Origin: Acidobacteria bacterium RIFCSPLOWO2_02_FULL_61_28
GTDB taxonomy: Bacteria; Acidobacteriota; Terriglobia; 2-12-FULL-54-10
Direction of reading: 5' to 3'
Assembly: GCA_001767035.1 (NCBI GenBank)
Contig: MEKR01000150.1
Coordinates: 1 to 33,251, forward strand
Length of the DNA: 33,251 bases
In this document: in pieces, positions 21,502 through 22,055 of the stretch
Layout: the number at the start of each line of letters is the position of its first letter
Position numbering within the stretch: position 1 is the stretch's first letter
The notes under the pieces: generated by a model
What the model saw: only the letters and a program-made list of their open reading frames with translations
What the model was told of the DNA's origin: nothing
Database searches by the model: none
Program-made: the position numbers and the translations under genes

Positions 21502-21969
21502 TCAACCTTCTTCCTGGACTTCGCCCTCCCACTCGACTCGAATGCCCCGCTGAACGCTTTGCGCCACGGGACAGCCTTTCTCGTGGACCTCAATAGCCCG
21601 TTCTGCTTCGGCGCGCTTCCCGCTGGGGACCTTGACGCGATACTTGATGTGGATGCGCGTGATGAGCGCAATGCCGTCCACGTTCTCGACAAACCCTTCG
21701 ACCTCGGCTTCGAGCTTGTCGGGATGAGTCGGAATTTTCCGTGCCGCCAGCGCCCCGGCCAGCGTGCCGGTCATTCAGCCGCCGACGGCCGCCACCACGT
21801 GGTCAATCGTTGCGGGCAGGTCTTCGGGAGGCTCCACTCCGTAAAACTTCTTGATGCCCCCGTGGAGCCCGTAGCGCACCGGCTCCGGAAAATTCTCGAT
21901 GTAGGCGCGCCGCAGCGGCCCCTTGTCCTTCACGATCCTGATATGGGAAACATGAACAATTTCGCCCAT
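21502..21969 (-). CDS. OsmC-family protein with in-frame TGA at the catalytic Cys (candidate selenoprotein)
   Basis: OsmC/Ohr proteins reduce organic hydroperoxides with a reactive cysteine in a buried helix and a second cysteine. Read through one TGA, the product has 155 residues. Residues 1-64 end DHVVAAVGG; codon 65 is TGA (21777-21775); the frame goes on MTGTLAGALAARKIP. In the family this position is the first catalytic Cys. The second Cys is present (EKGCPVAQSV). The downstream half is intact to a TAG-free normal end, so decay is not evident. Just after the TGA, bases can fold as CCG.CA.CGC / GCG.TG.CGG around a TGGCCGGG loop, compatible with a bacterial SECIS element. OsmC-like selenoproteins are known from metagenomes. 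The ATG at 21969 has AGGAG upstream. A plain nonsense mutation or sequence error remains possible. Confidence 0.75.
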
Positions 21970-22055
21970 CGTCCACACTCCTGTTTGTCAGTTGACCCGA
22001 CTATCCTAGCAGTTTTCTCCGTCTGCTGTCGCGCGCGCGATGAAGCTTGCCGTTC

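Follow-up and report, generated by a model that had tools for sequence, protein, structure and literature searches.

In a bacterium from soil or groundwater, an antioxidant gene appears to be disrupted by a stop codon, and the question is whether this gene is damaged or whether its internal TGA is read as selenocysteine (Sec). The gene lies in the window examined here, i.e., the complete stretch of 33,251 nucleotides that forms one contig (C150) of a 3.86-Mb draft Acidobacteriota genome (G000; 199 contigs, 91.7% complete). In a preliminary description of this DNA, it had been put forward as an OsmC-family gene with TGA in place of the first catalytic cysteine and thus as a candidate selenoprotein gene. 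The analysis reported below supports this proposal through the conservation of the TGA, a SECIS-like hairpin, the presence of SelA, SelB and SelD, and the occurrence of Cys forms in two genomes in which no Sec machinery was found.

Gene structure and coding potential

The coordinates given in the preliminary description were correct, and the strand, which had been left unstated, is the minus strand (Table 1). Read from 21969 to 21502, the frame runs MGEIVHVSH...DHVVAAVGG-TGA-MTGTLAGALAARKIPTHP...HEKGCPVAQSV...QEEG-TGA. OsmC sequence had been recognized on both sides of the internal TGA, and the read-through protein indeed matches the Pfam OsmC family (PF02566) over residues 55-148 with 57.2 bits (E 2.4e-15; gathering score 27.5). 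The placement of the TGA at the first catalytic Cys was borne out by alignment with Cys59 of E. coli OsmC, and the corresponding Cys of T. thermophilus OsmC also aligns with codon 65. The second Cys, reported as intact, is Cys133. When all TGAs in the window were scanned, codon 65 was the only one with open, coding-like sequence extending for 40 codons or more on both sides.

Table 1. Positions of the predicted selenoprotein gene and its elements in the window
Feature	Position	Strand	Description and basis
OsmC-family selenoprotein gene (predicted)	21502..21969	-	155 codons plus stop, Sec at codon 65; PF02566 on read-through, TGA homologues, purifying selection
In-frame TGA, codon 65, predicted Sec	21775..21777	-	Aligned to E. 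coli OsmC catalytic Cys59 (PDB 1qwi/1ukk); 119 TGA vs 3 TGC distinct homologues
Second catalytic cysteine Cys133 (KGCPVAQS)	21571..21573	-	Aligned to E. coli OsmC Cys125; invariant in both homologue alignments
Shine-Dalgarno-like AGGAG	21978..21982	-	8 nt before ATG at 21969; direct sequence reading
SECIS-like hairpin core CGCUGGC - loop CGGGGC - GCUGGCG	21745..21764	-	Apical loop 17 nt after TGA; RNAfold -18.0 kcal/mol
Extended hairpin, lower stem around core	21739..21770	-	RNAfold minimum free energy structure

Comparison with five relatives gave dN values of 0.13-0.21 and dS values of 0.8-2.6, and purifying selection was equally strong 5' and 3' of the TGA, which indicates an osmC gene without decay. 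The earlier statement that the part downstream of the TGA is otherwise undamaged also held, as dN stays far below dS there and the gene carries no other lesions. Trouble for automatic annotation had been foreseen as well; the standard list of open reading frames shows just a 90-aa downstream piece (21774-21502). Since standard ORF callers split or truncate every copy of this gene, much of the existing annotation probably overlooks what would be a widespread antioxidant selenoprotein.

Conservation of the TGA across bacteria

The comparison with homologues that had been proposed in the preliminary description was carried out at several scales. In a search of 150 relatives, 32 near-full-length homologues besides the window gene contained a single internal TGA, and three had none. 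Among the best 80 relatives from approximately 85,000 GTDB species genomes, which were scanned with a profile carrying X at codon 65, the TGA was present in 80 of 80. In a sample from the phylum of the window, the gene occurred in 33 of 396 genomes, and every match spanning codon 65 had exactly one TGA and zero other stops. Over all searches, TGA was found at this codon in 150 homologous matches, corresponding to 119 distinct sequences, and TGC in three distinct sequences; in the homologue alignment, codon 65 always specifies Cys when it is not TGA. Thus, the codon is conserved as TGA in many species and phyla rather than being replaced by other stop or missense codons, and the Cys forms are rare.

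The TGA genes span more than 10 phyla. Carriers include Acidobacteriota, Rokubacteria, Methylomirabilota, Tectomicrobia, Nitrospinota, Hydrogenedentota and deltaproteobacterial groups, as well as Bacillota (Fictibacillus, Alkalicoccus and Frackibacter), Armatimonadota, Chloroflexota and others. The genes of Rokubacteria and Methylomirabilota and those of its own family are equally close to the window gene. Phylogenetic analysis of 131 proteins placed the three TGC genes together on a single branch (100/100 support) that falls within the TGA genes, so that the change from Sec to Cys is the derived direction; the Cys form would have arisen once inside the Sec tree, with loss of the machinery in two of the three genomes concerned. 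No close relative of the window gene was found on plasmids, and no conserved partner gene emerged from the gene neighbourhoods compared across phyla. A separate observation is that a flavin-reductase-like gene lies closely 3' of the Sec-osmC gene in eight loci (for example, L172:3476-3992 in Acidobacteriota).

These data bear on the possibility that the gene is a pseudogene, or that its TGA is a sequencing or assembly error of TGC or TGT, which requires one base change in a draft genome of 199 contigs. That about 119 distinct homologues, originating in more than 10 phyla and in different sequencing projects, share this TGA argues strongly against it, as do the constraint described above and the intact remainder of the gene. 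As a general explanation, error or gene decay is already refuted by the conserved TGA, and the probability left to it is very small.

A SECIS-like hairpin downstream of the TGA

The hairpin with a GG-containing loop noted in the preliminary description exists as a 7-bp stem closed by the loop CGGGGC (Table 1), and its minimum free energy is below that of 99% of synonymous recodings of the same stretch. Two G-U pairs stand in the window copy where most others pair A-U. In the clade of the window gene, which it shares with Rokubacteria and Methylomirabilota, the hairpin is shifted upstream, has the form CGCU(A/G)GC - loop CGGGGC or CGUGGC - GCU(A/G)GCG, and places its apical loop 17 nt after the TGA. 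Within this clade, 100 of 105 stem pairs are formed, against 64.4 +/- 4.0 expected from synonymous recoding, and full stems occur in 11 of 15 sequences, against 0.3 expected.

Most homologues (group 1) have a 6-bp stem with a UGGAA-type loop located 25 nt after the TGA. Synonymous recodings of the 91 sequences gave 307.5 +/- 10.4 of 546 stem pairs, compared with the 513 observed, and full stems were present in 76 of the 91, compared with 2.7 expected and a maximum of 9 in 1000 trials. The stem is kept through amino-acid changes by matched codons, namely GCG..GCG for Ala-Leu-x-Ala, GCA..GTG in most cases of Ala-Leu-x-Val, and GTG..GCA for Val-Leu-x-Ala. The covariation score of the UGGAA-type hairpin was reached by none of 500 shuffles and was the top value of all slid registers. 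RNAalifold preferred a register of its own with a 4-bp core, shifted by two columns, because the GCGC repeats permit slipping. The full stem is missing from all three TGC genes (0/3), which nonetheless fold somewhat better than their synonymous recodings by overall minimum free energy. Single-sequence fold z-scores against dinucleotide shuffles were weak (-0.1 to -1.9); comparison across sequences and against synonymous recodings was far more informative.

A published model of the bacterial SECIS (bSECIS) specifies a stem of 4-16 bp, a loop of 3-9 nt, a G in the first two loop positions and a distance of 16-37 nt from the UGA (PMC13188914), and both hairpin types fall within it. The SECIS prediction suggested earlier therefore came out in favour of the candidate, with compensatory codon changes in addition. 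The osmC hairpins resemble the bSECIS consensus in their stems of 6-7 bp, loops of 5-6 nt, G at loop position 2 followed by another G, and distance of 17-25 nt from the UGA, and depart from it in having two clade-specific registers, i.e., the UGGAA-type majority and the CGGGGC/CGUGGC type in the clade of the window gene.

Selenocysteine machinery in the host genome

The preliminary description had expected Sec machinery elsewhere in the genome, and this was largely confirmed: selA is present on contig C183, selB on C17 and selD on C12, but selC was found only on an apparently foreign contig. The SelB of C17 is 71-74% identical to the SelB of the same-family genomes G001, G002 and G004, which identifies it as native; selB is hence not absent from this genome. 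The selD gene (G000:C12:32371-33300; loci L022 and L030) has an in-frame TGA of its own at AAG-U-ASKLSP and represents a second predicted selenoprotein gene of the genome. Near the native selB, a cobalamin riboswitch (95 bits; L028:4629-4811) was detected upstream of a TonB-dependent receptor gene.

The sole tRNA-Sec gene of the assembly belongs to a selC-selB-selA cluster on contig C197 (L027). This contig was rejected as the Sec locus of the host, as its SelB shares 36% identity with the native type and shows no greater similarity to that of any relative. Its tetranucleotide profile is the outlier among the larger loci, its content (including a TorF porin and a Rieske dioxygenase) has a proteobacterial look, and it is probably a foreign binning contaminant. 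Adjoining the foreign tRNA-Sec gene is a gene for an ArsM-like methyltransferase with an in-frame TGA (L027:4826-5660; NIDLWTG-U-IAGALQ), which resembles the known arsenite methyltransferase selenoprotein.

No native selC was found in the 199 contigs of the 91.7%-complete assembly, including in a search with the tRNA-Sec of a sister genome. Because the sole tRNA-Sec gene lies on the apparently foreign C197, the native selC is probably situated in an assembly gap. In the same-family SelB carriers G001 and G002 (86 and 88% complete), tRNA-Sec was likewise not recognised, which offers a divergent tRNA-Sec as an alternative to the gap. A tRNA-Sec gene is present in 16 of the 17 other genomes with a TGA gene that were tested, the exception (G006) being 82% complete. 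Neither tRNA-Sec nor SelB was found in two of the genomes with the TGC form (G101 and G125; 97% and 94% complete), and the third (G097) has kept the Sec machinery together with a TGA paralogue.

An unusual long tRNA is encoded on contig C157 (G000:C157:803-889; L008), which ARAGORN classified as tRNA-Ile(UAU). It has an 8-bp acceptor stem, a 4-bp T stem and a long variable arm and resembles published allo-tRNAs, and its locus has a GC content of 51% versus approximately 60% for the genome. Such a tRNA brings to mind the reading of UGA as another amino acid, e.g., Trp or Cys, through a suppressor tRNA or an altered genetic code; but its anticodon, UAU, cannot read UGA. A comparable internal TGA is found in no other gene of the window, codon 65 specifies Cys whenever the TGA is absent, and the Sec machinery and the SECIS account for the TGA directly, all of which makes such recoding extremely improbable.

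Fold, active site and proposed mechanism

An AlphaFold model built with 38 homologues has the OsmC fold with a mean pLDDT of 96.2, and Foldseek matched it with a probability of 1.00 to many OsmC and Ohr structures. In the model, the central helix carries residue 65, and Cys133 sits where one of the two later helices gives way to the other, which is the usual layout of the OsmC/Ohr family. The protein would thus have the fold and the two-residue redox centre in common with OsmC/Ohr organic hydroperoxide reductases such as those of E. coli (PDB 1qwi, 1nye and 1n2f; TIGR03562), and the spacing of the redox residues is alike (65/133 versus 59/125 in E. coli OsmC). The two differ in that a predicted Sec takes the position of the peroxidatic Cys; moreover, identity is only about 15-20%, and TIGR03562 gives 31.6 bits for the window protein, compared with a cut-off of 85.8.

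The modelled fold is also relevant to the idea of two separate products, in which translation would stop after 64 residues and begin again at the ATG that follows the TGA to give a C-terminal piece. An ATG does follow the TGA directly in the clade of the window gene, and the ORF finder reports the 90-aa piece; however, many other homologues have CTG, CTC or CTT at this codon, and in the model such a split would cut through the central OsmC helix. Since two products would also leave the constrained hairpin and the Cys replacements in genomes without Sec machinery unexplained, there is next to no chance that the gene is used in this way.

On the evidence of the gene structure, the conservation of the TGA, the selection on the hairpin, the Sec machinery, the fold and the position in the active site, the gene almost certainly encodes a 155-residue selenoprotein of the Ohr/OsmC fold, in which UGA65 would be decoded as Sec by SelB, Sec-tRNA(Sec) and the hairpin within the gene. 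The hairpin, starting a few bases after the UGA in the coding sequence, would direct SelB and Sec-tRNA(Sec) to codon 65. In the protein, the selenolate of Sec65 would most likely be the peroxidatic residue of a thiol (here selenol) peroxidase of the Ohr/OsmC type, reducing what is presumably an organic (or sulfur-based) peroxide; Sec65 would then form a selenylsulfide with Cys133 as the resolving residue, and this bond may be reset by a cellular thiol reductant. These roles are proposed because of family membership and position, and we infer that selenium is of benefit to the protein.

Implications

With some preference, we regard the gene as a member of an undescribed OsmC subfamily in which Sec is ancestral and near-obligatory, which occurs in more than 10 phyla and has been moving between them, and which may contribute to the retention of Sec decoding where a bacterium has few selenoproteins. 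Its existence would add peroxide defence to the predicted uses of Sec in many uncultured lineages from soil and the subsurface. Cultured carriers of this TGA, among them Fictibacillus solisalsi and Alkalicoccus saliphilus, make the prediction testable, and the rarity of Cys forms makes this subfamily a good case for studying why some enzymes keep selenium.

Comparison with known OsmC-like selenoproteins

Predictions of OsmC-like selenoproteins go back to 3-5 marine sequences that share the motif UxxT (PMC1088965, PMC2398784), and in a 2026 review there is still a single OsmC-like family, again with this motif (PMC13188914). The preliminary description was therefore right that such proteins are known from marine data; by published motif and HMM score, however, they appear to belong to a different subfamily. 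An OsmC selenoprotein subfamily with UxxGT was not found in the open literature searched.

That the window protein is merely a member of the described family (Sargasso Sea, UxxT; NCBIfam NF041052), with nothing new about it, deserves some weight, since it shares the Pfam family and the replaced cysteine with OsmC-like selenoproteins that have been reported repeatedly (PMC1088965, PMC2398784, PMC9312934, PMC13188914). Like the protein from the Sargasso Sea and Global Ocean Sampling (GOS) data (PF02566), it has an OsmC domain, a Sec in place of Cys in the redox motif and a SECIS-like hairpin after the UGA, and NF041052 (OsmC-related (seleno)protein) is likewise an OsmC domain family named for its Sec members. 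Nevertheless, NF041052 gives the window protein 22.2 bits against a curated cut-off of 95, and a phylum-wide search with it yielded no match in the host genome at E<=1e-12 but other, almost all uninterrupted proteins. Membership in the described family is accordingly considered unlikely. The motifs also differ: the marine proteins have UxxT, whereas the listed members of the present subfamily have U-[ML]-x-G-[TN], with G at position +3 (U-M-T-G-T in the window gene), and come from soil, sediment, groundwater and cultured bacteria belonging to many phyla. Judging by the published motif and the NF041052 score, the UxxGT subfamily appears to be separate from the marine one and far more widespread.
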